Positions 1,708 to 40,058 of a DNA stretch of 42,113 bases are shown in pieces. Below the pieces are notes generated by a model that did no database searches, had not been told where the DNA came from, and saw only the letters and a list, made by a program, of their open reading frames with translations. The position numbers and the translations under genes were made by a program. Origin of the DNA: a virus. Each line of letters begins with the position of its first letter. Within the stretch, counting starts at the first letter, position 1. The DNA lies in IMG/VR virus record IMGVR_UViG_3300013006_000058, positions 1 to 42,113 of that record; one strand, 5' to 3'.

Positions 1708-3033
1708 TCACCCGTGCGGCGCCGACACCGCCGCCCCGTCCAGCATCGGGCTCTCACCCAGCCAGCTCACATAATAGCGCTCCGTTGTCGCCGTCGATTT
1801 ATGCCCCAGAAAATAAGCCGCCGCCTCCAGGCCCAGCCGCTGATAGATCAAGCTTCCCGCATACATCCGCAGTTCATGATTCGCCTTCGCTTTGTCCGGA
1901 ATCCACTGCCGCATCCACTCGCAGTGTGTCCGATAAATCAGATCATACCGCGCCGAGTCCCCCAGCCCATCCGTCGCCCGTCCACCCGTCCCAGGCACTG
2001 TAACCTTTACCGGAGCCGTGATCAAATAGCCCACCTTCGGCAGCAGCATCCCCTTCAGCTCCTCATCCAGCTCCAGCTTCCGCGCCCTACCGTGCTTCAG
2101 CAGTTTGTATTCACTCCCACGATTTTTAATCACCAGCCAAGCGCGCCCCGTCGTCGCCTCCACCTCGATCCATTCGCGCCGCGCCATGTAGAGCTCCATA
2201 TCCCGCAGCCCCAGCCGCCGCAGCATCGCATTCACCAGCCACAGCTCCGGCTGCTCAGATCGCATCACCTCGCTTGCCGCCTGCATCTCCTCATACACAC
2301 CCGCAGGCCAGGGCTGGAAGCCAAGCACCTCCACCTTCAGCTTCGGCAGCTCCCGCAGATCCGTCAGCGGCGGCAGCACCAACCCAGCAAATTTCAGGTC
2401 CAGCATCCGGCGCGTAAACAGACTGGCCACATTCCGCACCGCCGAGTTCAGCCCACCGTTTACATCCAGAGCATCCACCCAATTCACCCCACGGCCACCG
2501 CGCCCCTGCCCTAGCGAGTAAAACCGCTCCAAGTTCGCCCGGCCCAGCACCTCCGCCAGACTCACCCCCTCAGGATCATGCGCATCGATCACCGCCGCGA
2601 TCCGTTTCAGGCTTGAATAATACGTCACCAGCGTCCGCGTCTCCGCCACCTTATCCCCCTCCAGGATCGCCCGACCAATATCCGCCACCGTCGCCGTCTT
2701 AGTGCGGGACCGGCTAGAAGTCACCCCCGCCGCAGCCAGACCATTCAGCGCCTCTTGCATCGCCTTCACCCGCGCCTCAGCCACCCGTTCAGCATCCACC
2801 ACCACAGGGGCCAGCGTCAGCTCCCGCACCCGCTTGCCGTTGACCTTGAAATCCATCGTATAGCACGACCCCTCAAAACGTTTGTAAAACGACACCGTGA
2901 CACCGCGAATTTTCCGTGTCACTCGCCCCTCCCAGAACGTCTTCGGAGCCGCCTTTGTGGCCGCCTTCTTGGCCGCCTTGGCGGGTTTAAGTGTCACGTT
3001 AGATGGGGCTGATGTCTGTGCTTTCGCGCTCAT
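1708..3033 (-). CDS. int: Tyrosine integrase
   Basis: 441 residues from the ATG at 3033. The reading frame stays open to a TTG at 3108, but that extension overlaps a palindrome and has no ATG. The N-terminus is Lys/Ala-rich, followed by an arm/core-binding region. The catalytic domain shows the first Arg in RRLGLRDMEL (about 274), a Lys in VIKNRGSEYK (about 305), HxxR in NHELR (about 386), a His in LGHKST (about 411) and the nucleophile Tyr in ERYY (about 420). This is a full tyrosine recombinase set. It should cut and join attP with the host tRNA-Leu site. attP lies directly upstream, and repeated GTGACAC sites cover its 5' end, so its expression may be autoregulated. It is the last gene in the leftward direction. 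Function call very strong. Confidence 0.95.
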   Translation of the reverse strand: MSAKAQTSAPSNVTLKPAKAAKKAATKAAPKTFWEGRVTRKIRGVTVSFYKRFEGSCYTMDFKVNGKRVRELTLAPVVVDAERVAEARVKAMQEALNGLAAAGVTSSRSRTKTATVADIGRAILEGDKVAETRTLVTYYSSLKRIAAVIDAHDPEGVSLAEVLGRANLERFYSLGQGRGGRGVNWVDALDVNGGLNSAVRNVASLFTRRMLDLKFAGLVLPPLTDLRELPKLKVEVLGFQPWPAGVYEEMQAASEVMRSEQPELWLVNAMLRRLGLRDMELYMARREWIEVEATTGRAWLVIKNRGSEYKLLKHGRARKLELDEELKGMLLPKVGYLITAPVKVTVPGTGGRATDGLGDSARYDLIYRTHCEWMRQWIPDKAKANHELRMYAGSLIYQRLGLEAAAYFLGHKSTATTERYYVSWLGESPMLDGAAVSAPHG

Positions 3034-3051
3034 AGTGTCACCAGTGACACT
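3034..3051. promoter_or_regulatory. Perfect palindrome just upstream of the integrase start
   Basis: AGTGTCACCAGTGACACT is an 8-bp perfect inverted repeat with a 2-base spacer, made of two back-to-back GTGTCAC sites, and it abuts the ATG of the integrase. It is likely an operator or a paired arm site through which the integrase or another factor controls integrase synthesis. Confidence 0.55.
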
Positions 3052-3151
3052 CCGCGTGACAACTTGCAACCCCAAAAAACCCCCAGTATCCACCAAAGGA
3101 ATCGACAAATTGCCCCTTGATGCAGGTCACTTTACCCAGTTAAAAACCCGT

Positions 3152-3618: not shown

Positions 3619-3930
3619 TCAAGGTCGGTTATCCACCAGCGTGCCTGCCTTCCGTGCATCTAGCACGATAGCACATCCCGCTGCCACATGACCCAGGTGA
3701 TGCGCGCCGCTTTCTGGATCGATGTCTTCGCCTTCAATGAGGCAGTCGATATGGCGCTTCATGGCTGCCAGATAGGTCATGATCTCCACTTGGTTCTGCC
3801 GCCAGTTCCATGGGCCGTATTTCTGAGCCCCCAGAGATAAAGCTGCCGCGACCTCCCGATTAAACACGGGCGGTAAGAGTTGCAGTTGCGGTTTCTGAGC
3901 GCCCGCCACGCCTTTGGGGTCAGCACTCAT
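3619..3930 (-). CDS. DUF5664 protein, dATP/dGTP diphosphohydrolase-like N-terminal domain
   Basis: 103 residues. The block KYGPWNWRQN, the helix YLAAMKRHIDCLIEGEDID and the stretch SGAHHLGHVAAGCAIVLDA, ending in GTLVDNRP, are the hallmark of DUF5664. This is a MazG-like all-alpha domain called the dATP/dGTP diphosphohydrolase N-terminal domain in phages, with His and acidic residues suited to metal-dependent nucleotide hydrolysis. Its start overlaps the stop of the 1931-residue gene as ATGA, so the two are translationally coupled. It probably adjusts the dNTP pool or removes damaged or unwanted nucleotides. Substrate not readable from sequence. Confidence 0.75.
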   Translation of the reverse strand: MSADPKGVAGAQKPQLQLLPPVFNREVAAALSLGAQKYGPWNWRQNQVEIMTYLAAMKRHIDCLIEGEDIDPESGAHHLGHVAAGCAIVLDARKAGTLVDNRP

Positions 3931-6900
3931 TTGCCCAGTGAAATGACTCGTTTACCGTCCACTTGCAGGCCGACGCTTGGCAGTTTGCCCACGCTGGCTT
4001 CACGTTTAGCGCGCACGATGACGGACTCAGGGATGCCTAGTTTAATAGCATCGCGTTCAAAGTCTCCGAGCTTCTGCCGCAAGGCCTCGATTTGTCCATT
4101 GGCGGCATCGACTGCGCGCTGGCTGGCACCAGGTCGGTTTAGTGAAATCTCACGGTTTGCCTGAGCGCGAATGTTTAAGTTCTCTTCTCCTAGATTACGA
4201 TAGACCCCTTCGACCATCTTTGGCCAAGTCTTGGTCGTTTCCCGTAGGCCAATGATGCGTCGAAATTCCTGCTCCACGCTATACTTGGTGCCGTTACGCT
4301 CCGCCTCGCGCATGGCGTAGGTAAGCCGCTCGATCTTCTCCGCAAAGCCAGGTTCTAGGATTGTCTTGAGCGGTTCATCCAGCCTTTCGAGAGCACCGGC
4401 AGCGCCTGTTTGATAGGTCAAAGGTGCGCCAGTGCGCCGCTTATTGGCTGCCGCATTGATCAAAGGACCGAGATGGACTGAGCTGCCCACAAATTGCTCA
4501 TACAGTCGATCCGCCACACGGCTAGCCGAGTCTGCCGGATTCTCCCCTTCGCGCATGGCTTGCAGCAGTTCCGTGATCGTCGTTTGTGGCAGCAGATAAC
4601 TTGTGTTGAAATAGCTTACCTTCTCCGCGTCAAACTCACGGAAGGCCAGCACGGCATCTTTCTCCCATGGAGCTCCAAACCATTTTCTAAAAAGTTTGTT
4701 GCGTTCGTCGTCACCACCTGCCGCGCCCGTGGCAGCCAGCAGAGCAGCCAGACCACCGCCAGCCATGGCCGAGATGGCACCAATACCAGCCACACGTTGC
4801 AGCCCGCGCTGCATCAGGGCAGGATTACCACTGCCTAGCTCCTCGGCAGCATACAGCACATTCCATCCAAAATTTCGGAAAACCTCATACTGAAAAGCAA
4901 TAAAGCTGCCCAGGATACCCAGCCTTGAGCCTTCTTTCAGCACTCCCGGCAGTGCCGCATAATTTGGAAACGTGTTTAACGTCCGCTGACTAGCCGAGGT
5001 CGCAGCCGCATCAGGAGCCATGCCAGAGGCTAGCGCCGCTTCATAGTTGGTCATCCAGCCCGTCACACGCGCCAGCGCATCCGGCTTGGTCATGAGAAAA
5101 TCGGCCAGCTTCATCTGCCAGGCTTGAATCTTTGTTCCGCCCGCTACTGCACCCGCAGCAGCACCGACGGCACCACCGACCGCACGCCCAGCTACACCTA
5201 GCCCACGCCCAAGTGCCTGCCCCACAATTAGCCCTTCCAGCGCACCCGCCGCTTTGTCTGCTTTCTGATCAAGTGCCAGCCATTGCAGCAGGTGACGCGG
5301 CAGACTAGCCTCCAGGTCCGCCAGAGTCAGGCTTGTGCCCAGAACTCCGGCTTCTGTTAAGCGTGCCTGCATGTCTCGGCTGGCATCTTGCAGAGCTTCA
5401 GCGGCTGCATTCACCACTTCCGCAGACTTTGTATCTCCTGCACCTGTGATCTCACGCGCTTTCTGCACGCGGTTGATGATGTTCCAGGCGAACACATCTC
5501 CGTTTTGAATAAGTGACGTAAGGTTTCCCAGCATGTTCACCATCCAGGAGTCTGGATTCAGCGCCACACGGTTCAGTTTTGCTTTATTCCCCAGTGCTTT
5601 CAGCGTCGTCACGATGATGCCGCCTAGATCAGAGCCTTCTTTGATGATGCCGCTGGCATTCTCCAGCGCTGCCAGCATCTGCGGCGTTGTCCATAGTCCA
5701 GCCATACCACTCCACGCTTGGTCATTCTCTGGAATCTGCTCAGTATAGACTCCCCCACGATCCGCAGAGAAAAGCCCCGTGGCCAGCCCTGCATTACGCA
5801 TTGCAACCTGCCCGTGATGTCGGGCGATGAACTGCGCTTGGAATCCCGCGCTCGATGTCAATAGCTTCACTGGGTTCTGTTCCTCACCCATTACCGCGCG
5901 GATTTCTGGCGCGATGTCCTTCCTGCGCATCAGGCTGCCGGTGCTCTTCTTGGCACCGCTACCTGTCAGTTCACGCTCCCACACATTTCGGTCCATCAGA
6001 TCGCGCAGATCAGCCTCGATCTGTTGAGTCGTTGCCTGCGGGTTCTGTCCTTGAAGATATGCCCGCGCATCATTCAGGATTTTGGATGCATCCTTACCGT
6101 TTACCAGGGATCCAGAGGCAGCGGCACGCAGCAGCGCATCATAGTTCCAGCCAGAGGCAGGGTCAAAGGCCGCATAGCTACGGCGTAGCCACGCCCCGAG
6201 ATTGCCCATAATCGTCTGTTTCATCGGTCCCGCTGGTAAAGTCTGGCCGACTGCCGCGCTCAGATTGTCCAGCAGCACACGCACCGCACGCGTCCGTTCA
6301 TGCAGCACCGGTGCCACTACAGACAGCAGCGCCGCCTGTTGTGCATCACCGCCCATCATGGCTGCCACCTGCGCATTGACTGCCTCAGGAGTTAGCCCAC
6401 TCTTATCCACATAGCCGTCAATGGCGGATTGTAGATCCTTGCCCAGTTGCGCGGCCCGTTGTTCCAGCGCCTTTTTCTCCTGATTGGTCCGTGTCAGCAC
6501 CGGCACCAGCTCAGCAGGTAGAGGCGAGCCCGTCAGCAGCTCACGCATTCCCAGGTAGTTCACGCGGAAAGGTTCACCCTTGGCATGGAATACTTTAGTG
6601 CCTCCTTTCAAAGACGGCAGCAGATTCAGTGCCCCCGCCTGATTTACCCGCACAGGTGCATTCTTGGCAGGCGCGCCCAGTCGCACATTCTTAGCCGCAT
6701 CCGTTGGCAGGGCATCCTTAGCCGCTGCCCACACCTGCGCCAAGTATTCGCGGATCGCATCACCGAAGCGTGTCACCATCTCCCCGCTCCACTGCAAAAA
6801 AGTCTTTCCCGCAGAGATAGCAGCATTAGCCAAGTCAAACAGTGCATCGACTCCAGCCGTGGACATGAAGCCAGCTTCAAGATCCTGCTGAATCACCAGA

Positions 6901-37500: not shown

Positions 37501-37875
37501 CTATAGGCTCAGCCACCTCCTCAGCTCGCTTTCAGGAATCAGGACCGAGGCACTTTTAGCCGTGCCTATCTTCACCTTCCGCATACGGCCCGACTTGATC
37601 CAGTCGCGCACCGTGTCCGCGGTTTTGTCCAGCAGGCCGGCCACAGTCTCCGGCGAATAATGCGGCTCAATCCTTCGGCCACAAAATAAAAAAAGAGAGC
37701 GCCCGCTAATCTGCCACTCACCGCGCAGCAGCTCCGCACCAGGCAGCAGGCCCACAGCGCACCAACGGTCAACGATCGCGCGCGGAGTGTCCAGCAGTGC
37801 GGCCACCTCAGCCGCTGACCAGGTGCCACGGCGCAGCAGGTCCGTTAGGTCCATTTGTGAGTCAGTTTTAGCCAT
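37501..37875 (-). CDS. Tandem excisionase-like HTH protein
   Basis: 124 residues with two similar winged-HTH units. The first (TWSAAEVAALLDTPRAIVDR) is at about 18-68, the second (HYSPETVAGLLDKTADTVRD) at about 71-123. Both match the MerR/excisionase-type (HTH_17) pattern of EVAxLLxxxxxxVxxW. Double units suggest binding to a dimeric or two-turn site. In a temperate phage with an integrase and without any other Xis, this is the best excisionase or early-regulator candidate. A role in excision is inferred. Confidence 0.65.
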   Translation of the reverse strand: MAKTDSQMDLTDLLRRGTWSAAEVAALLDTPRAIVDRWCAVGLLPGAELLRGEWQISGRSLFLFCGRRIEPHYSPETVAGLLDKTADTVRDWIKSGRMRKVKIGTAKSASVLIPESELRRWLSL

Positions 37876-38120: not shown

Positions 38121-38308
38121 AGGACGGCAAAAACGACAAAGATCAGCGCCAGCATTAGCCCGCCCATTAGGGCCCGGTGCAGCTCTAGCAGAGCAGCCGC
38201 GCGCAGCTCACGCGCAGCCCTCAGGCGTTTAGCTCTGGGACTCTCAGCCCGTAGCCGCGCATAAAAGGCCGCTGCACGGTCAGTCACTCGATCATTGCCG
38301 TAGATCAT
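38117..38308 (-). CDS. 63-residue protein with a C-terminal membrane anchor
   Basis: The start at 38308 is set by the ATGA overlap with the RHH gene; the longer frame to 38374 is Lys/Gly-rich noise. The N-terminal 40 residues are helical and basic, and the last ~18 (GLMLALIFVVFAVL) are a membrane segment. A tail-anchored protein directly behind the repressor-like gene could act in exclusion. Function unknown. Confidence 0.5.
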   Translation of the reverse strand: MIYGNDRVTDRAAAFYARLRAESPRAKRLRAARELRAAALLELHRALMGGLMLALIFVVFAVL

Positions 38309-38481
38309 GGCCGCACCTCCTCGGCGCTTGCCGTGCTTGCGTTTGCCAATTGCTCCGAAAGCTGAAGCACCCATTCACGAACCAGGATTGAAACAGGCTT
38401 GCCAGTGCGCACGCTCTCGCGTTGCAAGGCCGCCCTGCGTTCTTCTGGCAGATTCAATTCTTCTAGGATTGTCGTTCTCAT
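38305..38481 (-). CDS. Ribbon-helix-helix protein, candidate switch repressor
   Basis: 58 residues from the ATG at 38481 (AAACTATG context; the longer frame to 38562 would run through the operators). Strand TTILEEL then helices PEERRAALQRESVRTGKPVSI and LVREWVLQLSEQLA fit the Arc/CopG-type RHH fold, which binds DNA as dimers on short palindromes. It is the first gene of the leftward unit and lies 2 bases from the nearest of three identical-type palindromes. It is thus the natural repressor or autoregulator of the switch. Role inferred from position. Confidence 0.7.
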   Translation of the reverse strand: MRTTILEELNLPEERRAALQRESVRTGKPVSILVREWVLQLSEQLANASTASAEEVRP

Positions 38482-38483
38482 AG

Positions 38484-38500
38484 TTTGATGTAACATCAAA
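38484..38500. promoter_or_regulatory. Switch operator O1
   Basis: TTTGATGTAACATCAAA: perfect 7-bp arms with a 3-base spacer, 2 bases upstream of the RHH start codon. The core TTGATG-N3-CATCAA is shared with O2 and O3. Confidence 0.75.
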
Positions 38501-38529
38501 TCAATATTTGATGATTCATCAATCGTCAA
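38501..38529 (-). promoter_or_regulatory. Candidate leftward early promoter
   Basis: On the minus strand TTGACG (plus 38524-38529, one mismatch to TTGACA) is followed by exactly 17 bases and then TATTGA (plus 38501-38506), a poor -10. The 17-base spacer is operator O2, so a bound repressor would block this promoter. RNA would start near the RHH gene. Confidence 0.45.
38507..38523. promoter_or_regulatory. Switch operator O2
   Basis: TTTGATGATTCATCAAT: core TTGATG-ATT-CATCAA. Centred 23 bp from O1. It fills the spacer between the -35 and -10 of the candidate leftward promoter. Confidence 0.75.
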
Positions 38530-38536
38530 ACTAAAA

Positions 38537-38553
38537 CTTGATGATTCATCAAA
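38537..38553. promoter_or_regulatory. Switch operator O3
   Basis: CTTGATGATTCATCAAA: core identical to O2. Centred 30 bp from O2 and 19 bp upstream of the rightward HTH gene, so it is likely to control rightward transcription. Confidence 0.75.
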
Positions 38554-38571
38554 TCTCGCCAAAATTAGCCA

Positions 38572-38961
38572 ATGACAAAGGACGAACTCAAAAACTGGCT
38601 AGCCAATAACCAGAAAGACCGCGCATGGCTTGCCCAGGAAATCGGCGTCAGTAAAGGCACTGTAGATCAATGGTTTTCTAAAGGGTTTCCAGAATGGGCC
38701 ATCATGGCTATTAAACGCATGAGAGAGCAGCCGCTAGACGATGCAGGCCTTGATGTAGCATTCACCGCCGCAGAATTTGAGCTAATCGAGGCCGCGCGCA
38801 TCTTGTCCGCGCACCCCACCCGTAGCGCCTTTTATCACACAGCAATCATGCAATTCACCGATGAAATTCTAGAGCGCGAAGCCGACCCAAAGACCAAAGC
38901 CTCATCCGTGAAAACGGGGCCGTTCATCTTAGGCTATGGCAGCCAGAAAGCAGGCGCATAA
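38572..38961 (+). CDS. Cro/CI-like HTH protein
   Basis: 129 residues. An N-terminal HTH (RAWLAQEIGVSKGTVDQWFS, about 18-37) is of the XRE/Cro kind; the rest is helical and acidic (EFELIEAARILSAHPTRSAF), possibly for dimerisation. It is the first rightward gene, divergent to the RHH gene across the three operators, as Cro and CI are in lambda. No self-cleavage domain is seen. It could be either the lytic antirepressor or the lysogenic repressor; its target may be the same operators. The ATG at 38572 has no Shine-Dalgarno sequence. Confidence 0.75.
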   Translation: MTKDELKNWLANNQKDRAWLAQEIGVSKGTVDQWFSKGFPEWAIMAIKRMREQPLDDAGLDVAFTAAEFELIEAARILSAHPTRSAFYHTAIMQFTDEILEREADPKTKASSVKTGPFILGYGSQKAGA

Positions 38962-39074: not shown

Positions 39075-39104
39075 ATAATTGTTGTATCACAACAATTATA
39101 TAAT
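39075..39104 (+). promoter_or_regulatory. Candidate promoter with overlapping dyad for the ArdC operon
   Basis: ATAATTGTTG-TATCA-CAACAATTAT is a 10-bp perfect inverted repeat (39075-39099) that ends in TATAAT (39099-39104), an exact -10 box, 57 bases before the ArdC-like start. A good -35 is not visible; TTGTTG lies too near (14 bases). The dyad is unlike the switch operators, so another regulator may bind here. Confidence 0.5.
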
Positions 39105-39161: not shown

Positions 39162-40058
39162 ATGAAAACCAGCACACGCAAGCCAGCCACCGAAGAGCAA
39201 AAAGCCGCCGCCAAAGAGCGCCGCGCAGAGATCGCTAAAATGATGGGCACCATCAAAGCCATGCCCACAGAAAAGCGTATTTTACTAGCCGCCCGCTTTG
39301 GCATTCGCAACGCAGAGGGCCGCGAGCTCTCCGTTTATAATCAATGCTTACTCATCGCCCAGAACGACAAGACAACCATCGTCGGCGGTTTCCAGCAATG
39401 GAAAAAGCTCGGCCGCAGCGTTAAGAAAGGCAGCCGCGCCCTTGCAATCTGGGTGCCATGCAGCCGCAAAGCCGAAGGCGCGGGCGGTTCGTCCATCATC
39501 CCACATGGCGTCGATCCTTCCGACCTAGACGAAAGCTTTTTCGTCTTGGGTAACGTGTTCGACATCGCCCAGACCGAGACCGAAGCCGAAAAGTTAGCCC
39601 GCGAAGGAGACGAAGCCCTAGAAGCCGCCGCCCGTCCACGCCTCCCCACCTCCGAGGCCCTAGACATAGAGGCCGCCGAAGTCATCACCGCCCCCGCACC
39701 TCTCACCCTCTCAGAATCCCGCCAGTCTCAGGAATTAAGCCCAGCCGAGCGCGGCGAATCCTTCACCGTTCCGCAATGGATCCAGGCCCCAGAGCGCGAA
39801 GGCTGGCAGGAAACCACCGGCCGCGCCAAAGGTGGTCGGATCATCTTTCAGCGCGGCACCGATTACGCCACCTATGACGCCGCCGCCGATCAAATGGACC
39901 TTATGCCCGCCGCCCTCACCATTTGGGACGTAGAAGCACCCGCACCAGGTCAGCAGCTCTTAATCAGTCCCCCGCGTAAGCCCGCCGCCGTAGTCGCTGA
40001 AAAAGCACCGGAAACAATGCCCACCGAGCAAGACGAATTCATGCTTTTAGCCGCCTAA
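39162..40058 (+). CDS. ArdC-like single-strand-DNA-binding antirestriction protein
   Basis: 298 residues. Residues about 60-105 (NQCLLIAQNDKTTIVGGFQQ, then WKKLGRSVKKGSRALAIWVP) match the ArdC N-terminal domain (DUF1738), which binds single-stranded DNA. ArdC proteins usually have a C-terminal metallopeptidase with HExxH; none is found here, only a Glu/Ala-rich disordered part and short strands. So it is a one-domain form. ArdC shields incoming DNA from restriction. The neighbours (zinc proteins, methyltransferase) support an anti-restriction role. Promoter dyad upstream, repeated hairpin downstream. Confidence 0.75.
   Translation: MKTSTRKPATEEQKAAAKERRAEIAKMMGTIKAMPTEKRILLAARFGIRNAEGRELSVYNQCLLIAQNDKTTIVGGFQQWKKLGRSVKKGSRALAIWVPCSRKAEGAGGSSIIPHGVDPSDLDESFFVLGNVFDIAQTETEAEKLAREGDEALEAAARPRLPTSEALDIEAAEVITAPAPLTLSESRQSQELSPAERGESFTVPQWIQAPEREGWQETTGRAKGGRIIFQRGTDYATYDAAADQMDLMPAALTIWDVEAPAPGQQLLISPPRKPAAVVAEKAPETMPTEQDEFMLLAA

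Follow-up and report, generated by a model that had tools for sequence, protein, structure and literature searches.

The divergent gene pair analysed here probably acts as the switch for lysogeny (immunity) in a temperate phage, and the rightward 129-aa HTH protein would be a repressor of the CI lineage that lacks the peptidase S24 domain and binds three operator-like palindromes (O1 to O3). On the comparisons set out below, we put the probability of this reading at about 70%. The window, i.e. the whole stretch of DNA analysed, is the entire IMG/VR virus record IMGVR_UViG_3300013006_000058 (42,113 bases), in which end repeats are absent. That the locus is a divergent regulatory switch had been proposed from the letters of the DNA alone, and this interpretation is supported by the three operator-like sites and by the tyrosine recombinase encoded in the phage. 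The coordinates are collected in Table 1.

Table 1 Features of the putative switch and of its genomic context in the window
Feature	Position	Strand	Remarks
Tyrosine recombinase	1708..3108	-	motif HELR...LGHKSTATTERYY; likely start ATG at 3033
58-aa RHH-type protein	38305..38481	-	probable Cro position, first gene of the putative leftward lytic operon; assigned by AF2 model and PDB neighbours
O1	38484..38500		17-bp perfect palindrome TTTGATGTAACATCAAA; core 38485-38499 = TTGATGTAACATCAA
Leftward promoter candidate	38501..38529	-	-35 TTGACG 38529-38524, 17-bp spacer, -10 TATTGA 38506-38501; 8/12, weak
O2	38508..38522		15-bp perfect palindrome TTGATGATTCATCAA
Rightward promoter candidate	38508..38537	+	-35 TTGATG = left half of O2, 18-bp spacer, -10 TAAAAC; 8/12, weak
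O3	38538..38552		15-bp perfect palindrome, TTGATGATTCATCAA as in O2
129-aa HTH protein	38572..38961	+	no S24, probable lysogeny repressor; HTH at residues about 3-52, RHH-like region at about 59-104
ArdC-like antirestriction gene	39162..40058	+	downstream of the HTH gene; context, outside the switch

The 90-bp gap between the two genes holds three exact copies of the palindrome TTGATG-N3-CATCAA, each perfect over 15 bp, of which only O1 extends to 17 bp. Their centres (38492, 38515 and 38545) lie 23 and 30 bp apart, precisely as the original prediction had stated. Three palindromes with one common half-site appeared in one of 200,000 single-base shuffles of the gap, and two in 9 of 200,000. 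A chance origin of the repeats was rejected on the basis of these shuffles and of the conservation in the sister phage L001. No further site with up to one mismatch was found in the whole 42-kb record, and up to two mismatches yielded one extra site, which carries two; likewise, no second set of operators was found when the rest of the 42,113 bases was searched. Since O1 to O3 are nearly all one sequence, they give no hint of ranked affinities. Odd-centred palindromes of 15–17 bp suit an HTH dimer, as do the lambda- and 434-type operators.

When IMG/VR was scanned for two copies of the palindrome lying close together, the sister contig IMGVR_UViG_3300043371_000081 (L001) was the sole other match, and the exact palindrome is therefore not widespread. 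The cores of O1 to O3 are all identical in L001; the gap is identical at 86 of its 90 positions and the neighbouring genes are 84–95% identical. The conservation of the operator sites thus rests on one close phage pair.

The proposal that O2 fills the 17-base spacer of a leftward promoter stood with respect to geometry, the 15-bp O2 lying inside the spacer (38507-38523) of TTGACG-N17-TATTGA, whereas the promoter itself turned out to be weak, its -10 box matching at three of six positions only. Our promoter scan had a threshold of 9/12 and reported neither the leftward nor the rightward sequence; the leftward promoter is for this reason a candidate only. O3 comes directly after the -10 element of the rightward candidate. 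If both candidates are right, O1 would lie over the leftward start, O2 would touch both promoters and O3 would lie over the rightward start. In such a switch, dimers of the HTH protein would bind all three palindromes. Judged by position, O1 and O2 would serve to shut the leftward lytic operon, whose first gene is the RHH gene, and transcription of the repressor gene itself would be limited by O2 and O3. Once the lytic operon opens, the RHH protein would be made first and would most likely prevent the return of the repressor, binding either to DNA within the switch or to the repressor itself.

The 129-aa protein carries a lambda-repressor-like HTH, which matches the Phage_CI_repr family with an E-value of 8.7e-4, just short of the Pfam cutoff. 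The helices of this part in the structural model span residues 3-12, 17-24, 28-37 and 41-52. With the Chambord repressor, from an Akkermansia phage, the protein shares 33% identity over 84% (E 6e-8), and homologues were also found in several further phages and prophages of the Akkermansia type. A scan of the GTDB species genomes with the single protein sequence gave no match, and the same scan with an alignment found one Akkermansia contig. Most homologues have 253–300 aa and are matched by the 129-aa protein in their N-terminal parts. A peptidase S24 domain, the mark of CI/LexA repressors, was detected in all three homologues scanned, and that region is, judged by eye, common to the others. 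No S24 match was found in the 129-aa protein, in contrast to these relatives, and induction by self-cleavage is thus ruled out for it. The HTH gene had been described as Cro-like, which is at odds with its homology to the N-termini of S24 repressors.

In every locus examined in detail (Chambord/L035, Chantilly, L036, L037, L039, L041, L042, L043, L059 and L061), a gene of roughly 50–70 aa divergently adjoins the repressor gene. The small proteins have the sequence pattern of RHH proteins, with no family model reaching significance. The small divergent gene of Chambord heads an early operon with Sak4, exonuclease and RusA. The leftward operon of the window, consisting of the RHH gene and genes for a DUF1376 primosomal protein, DnaB, SSB and capsid, is likewise interpreted as the lytic operon. 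It also contains (37501-37875) a 124-aa protein with two HTH_17-type matches, similar to excisionases or DNA-binding proteins. Since S24 repressors are what the HTH protein is homologous to, and since the lytic operon begins with the small gene, we infer that lysogeny is most likely maintained by the HTH protein and that the RHH protein most likely occupies the Cro position. The question of which protein holds lysogeny, left undecided in the original prediction, is thereby probably answered in favour of the HTH protein in the CI role.

The short HTH protein might have lost the repressor role, and we counted this against the preferred reading. Short forms without S24 also occur in the Akkermansia genome contig L043 (4355-4666, 104 aa) and, as an HTH-RHH-like protein of 128 aa, in another phage lineage (L059), which indicates that the short repressor of the window is not a one-off truncation. 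L043 contains, at 3775-5777, two HTH-RHH repressor genes in succession, each accompanied by a small RHH-like gene on the opposite strand, and the first of the two lacks S24. In L059 (IMGVR_UViG_3300032293_001543, 2201-2887), the gene of the 128-aa protein is divergent from a 66-aa gene, and an inverted repeat of a different sequence, TGAGTAATT/AATTACTCA, lies near the HTH gene.

The expectation that related phages keep all three sites was borne out by the identical sites of L001, whereas the intergenic sites of the Akkermansia loci are different and show a TTGAT half-site in traces at most. Three perfect operator copies were not found in these loci. L042 has one single-mismatch site, TTGATGACTCATAAA, beside the small gene (shuffle frequency 0.002), and the sites in L041 carry two mismatches (0.026); many tests were made and several of the loci are near-copies of one another. 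There was no significant whole operator site in L035, L036, L037, L039 and L043. TTGAT half-sites are enriched in L035-L037 (4–5 copies versus 0.5–0.8 expected), a hint that the Akkermansia loci share this half-site with the window. Differing operators are what immunity specificity predicts.

The partner gene has its likely start at the ATG at 38481, which gives 58 codons, and its stop overlaps the start of the next gene (ATGA). Its codons differ from those of L001 by 14 synonymous changes and one non-synonymous change, from which we conclude that the gene is real and conserved. The 58-aa protein matched no Pfam or PHROG family and gave a weak match to the RelB family (E 0.02). Its AF2 model (mean pLDDT 77) displays the two helices of an RHH domain, and its Foldseek neighbours in the PDB are almost all RHH proteins (MazE, ParD, TacA, PutA, CopG, Arc, MatP and NikR), with Z up to 6.0 but every E-value above 1. 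The assignment of one partner to the Arc/CopG type, made from the letters alone, agrees with these structural neighbours in spite of the poor E-values. Sequence searches of the PDB with the small RHH proteins gave no RHH match, and profile comparison revealed no significant similarity between the RHH protein of the window and the small proteins of the Akkermansia loci. The small proteins are probably RHH proteins, as judged from fold and sequence pattern.

The RHH gene is more strictly conserved than the HTH gene, which differs from that of L001 by 17 synonymous and 11 non-synonymous changes. This could mean, in line with the roles that the original labels imply, that the RHH protein binds the three palindromes as the main repressor and that the HTH protein is Cro-like or accessory. 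RHH proteins bind short palindromic or repeated sites and serve as main repressors in P22 immI; moreover, 3 bp separate O1 from the start codon of the RHH gene, which would fit an autoregulatory site. Such an assignment of roles is nevertheless distinctly unlikely, given that the HTH protein has S24 repressors as homologues and that the head of a lytic operon is the wrong place for the gene of a maintenance repressor.

The second half of the 129-aa protein, LDVAFTAAEFELIEAARILSAHPTRSAFYHTAIMQF, was modelled with low confidence as an extended chain followed by helices 66-79 and 84-104. A profile of this region and its relatives matched the RHH antitoxin KacA (E 0.0017) and, weakly, AtaR (E about 1), and the relatives matched the Arc, FitA and CopG models, all below the cutoff. 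The protein therefore likely, though not provably, carries a second, RHH-like (DUF1778-like) domain. Its presence in the HTH protein and its relatives suggests another mode of action, in which the RHH protein would be an antirepressor that pairs with this domain and disables the HTH protein without itself needing to bind O1 to O3. RHH dimers are intertwined and mixed dimers are conceivable; a precedent is Mor, which disables CI in TP901-1 (PMC11149083). Weak similarity between the two RHH sets (hhalign probability 11%) and the low model confidence for the domain in the window speak against it, and we regard the antirepressor as a possible but rather unlikely variant. It is still somewhat less likely that these loci represent a class, found mostly in Akkermansia-type phages, in which an HTH-RHH fusion repressor with or without protease faces a free RHH partner in the Cro position and in which swapping of RHH dimer partners, together with DNA binding, decides between lysis and lysogeny. 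If this design is true, two DNA-binding folds would be united in a phage repressor whose partner consists of one of the two. Our search of the open-access literature yielded no paper describing either an HTH-RHH-S24 repressor or an RHH protein that takes the place of Cro, a result that does not prove absence.

RHH proteins are common antitoxins, and the weak RelB-family match and the ArdC-like gene that comes after the HTH gene might be taken to indicate a toxin-antitoxin or another stability module rather than a lysogeny switch. However, no toxin was recognised beside either gene and the genes are divergent, whereas type II toxin-antitoxin genes share one direction; this reading was rejected as highly improbable. 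In addition, ArdC-bearing relatives (L007-L012) retain ArdC and some of its neighbouring genes without the RHH/HTH pair.

For the lysogeny switch, the predicted tyrosine recombinase is evidence that the phage is temperate. We compared 15 related records, most of them fragments, which share the ArdC-like or the capsid gene. The recombinase and the HTH repressor are both present in L001 and neither is present in the other 14. This co-occurrence appears to back the link to lysogeny, as supportive evidence only. A search with the capsid protein returned no relative among named phages. Further symmetrical sequences were observed in the window. An 18-bp perfect palindrome, AGTGTCACTGGTGACACT (3034-3051), abuts the probable ATG of the recombinase gene (3033, minus strand) and is exactly kept in the sister phage despite diverged DNA just upstream; a role as an operator or as a hairpin that controls the recombinase is conceivable. 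A 25-bp perfect palindrome, ATAATTGTTGTATCACAACAATTAT (39075-39099), lies upstream of the ArdC-like gene and is imperfect in the sister phage. A strong terminator-like stem, AAAAGCCGTCGGAACCCCCGACGGCTTTT (1649-1677), is located between the converging DUF4942 and recombinase genes.

The locus appears to provide a compact lysogeny switch for little-studied Akkermansia-related phages; its operators look alike, its repressor is free of a protease domain and the place of Cro is taken by an RHH protein. Should the HTH-RHH design hold true, it would aid the recognition of immunity regions in this group of phages. In the literature searched, their switches seem not to have been described; in particular, our search found no published study of the switch of Chambord or Chantilly. 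The general switch design is known and it is the parts that are unusual.

The notion that the layout copies lambda OR applies only in part. Lambda OR also has three operators at similar spacing between divergent genes, an HTH repressor of the same broad fold and a partner gene at the head of the lytic operon. In contrast to the window, Cro is an HTH protein and CI has an S24 domain, whereas here the partner is RHH-like and the repressor lacks S24, the spacings are 23 and 30 bp and the record has no second operator set. RHH proteins also act as phage regulators in P22 immI (Arc, Mnt), where they control an antirepressor gene, whereas the RHH protein of the window faces an HTH repressor. Arc itself is an RHH repressor (PMC4634304). 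Chambord and Chantilly share with the window the homologous HTH domain, a probable RHH-like middle domain and the divergent small RHH-like gene; they differ in that their repressors have S24 and that their intergenic sites are different, without three perfect copies.

The nearest known design, closer than lambda OR, is in our comparison the CI/Mor system of Lactococcus phage TP901-1. In this phage, too, the genes of repressor and partner diverge, the three palindromic operators are related to one another and the HTH CI has no protease domain (PMC11149083), all of which resembles the window. Induction of TP901-1 nevertheless needs RecA, by an unknown route (PMC11149083). Its relative, Staphylococcus phage phi13, has a protease domain in CI (PMC11149083), and TP901-1 and phi13 thus correspond to the window and the Akkermansia phages as a pair of protease-free and protease-bearing repressors. 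In contrast to the RHH partner in the window, Mor is an HTH protein. The repressor of the window differs further in its probable RHH-like second domain. Mor acts on CI, and a corresponding antirepressor action in the window is a proposal.
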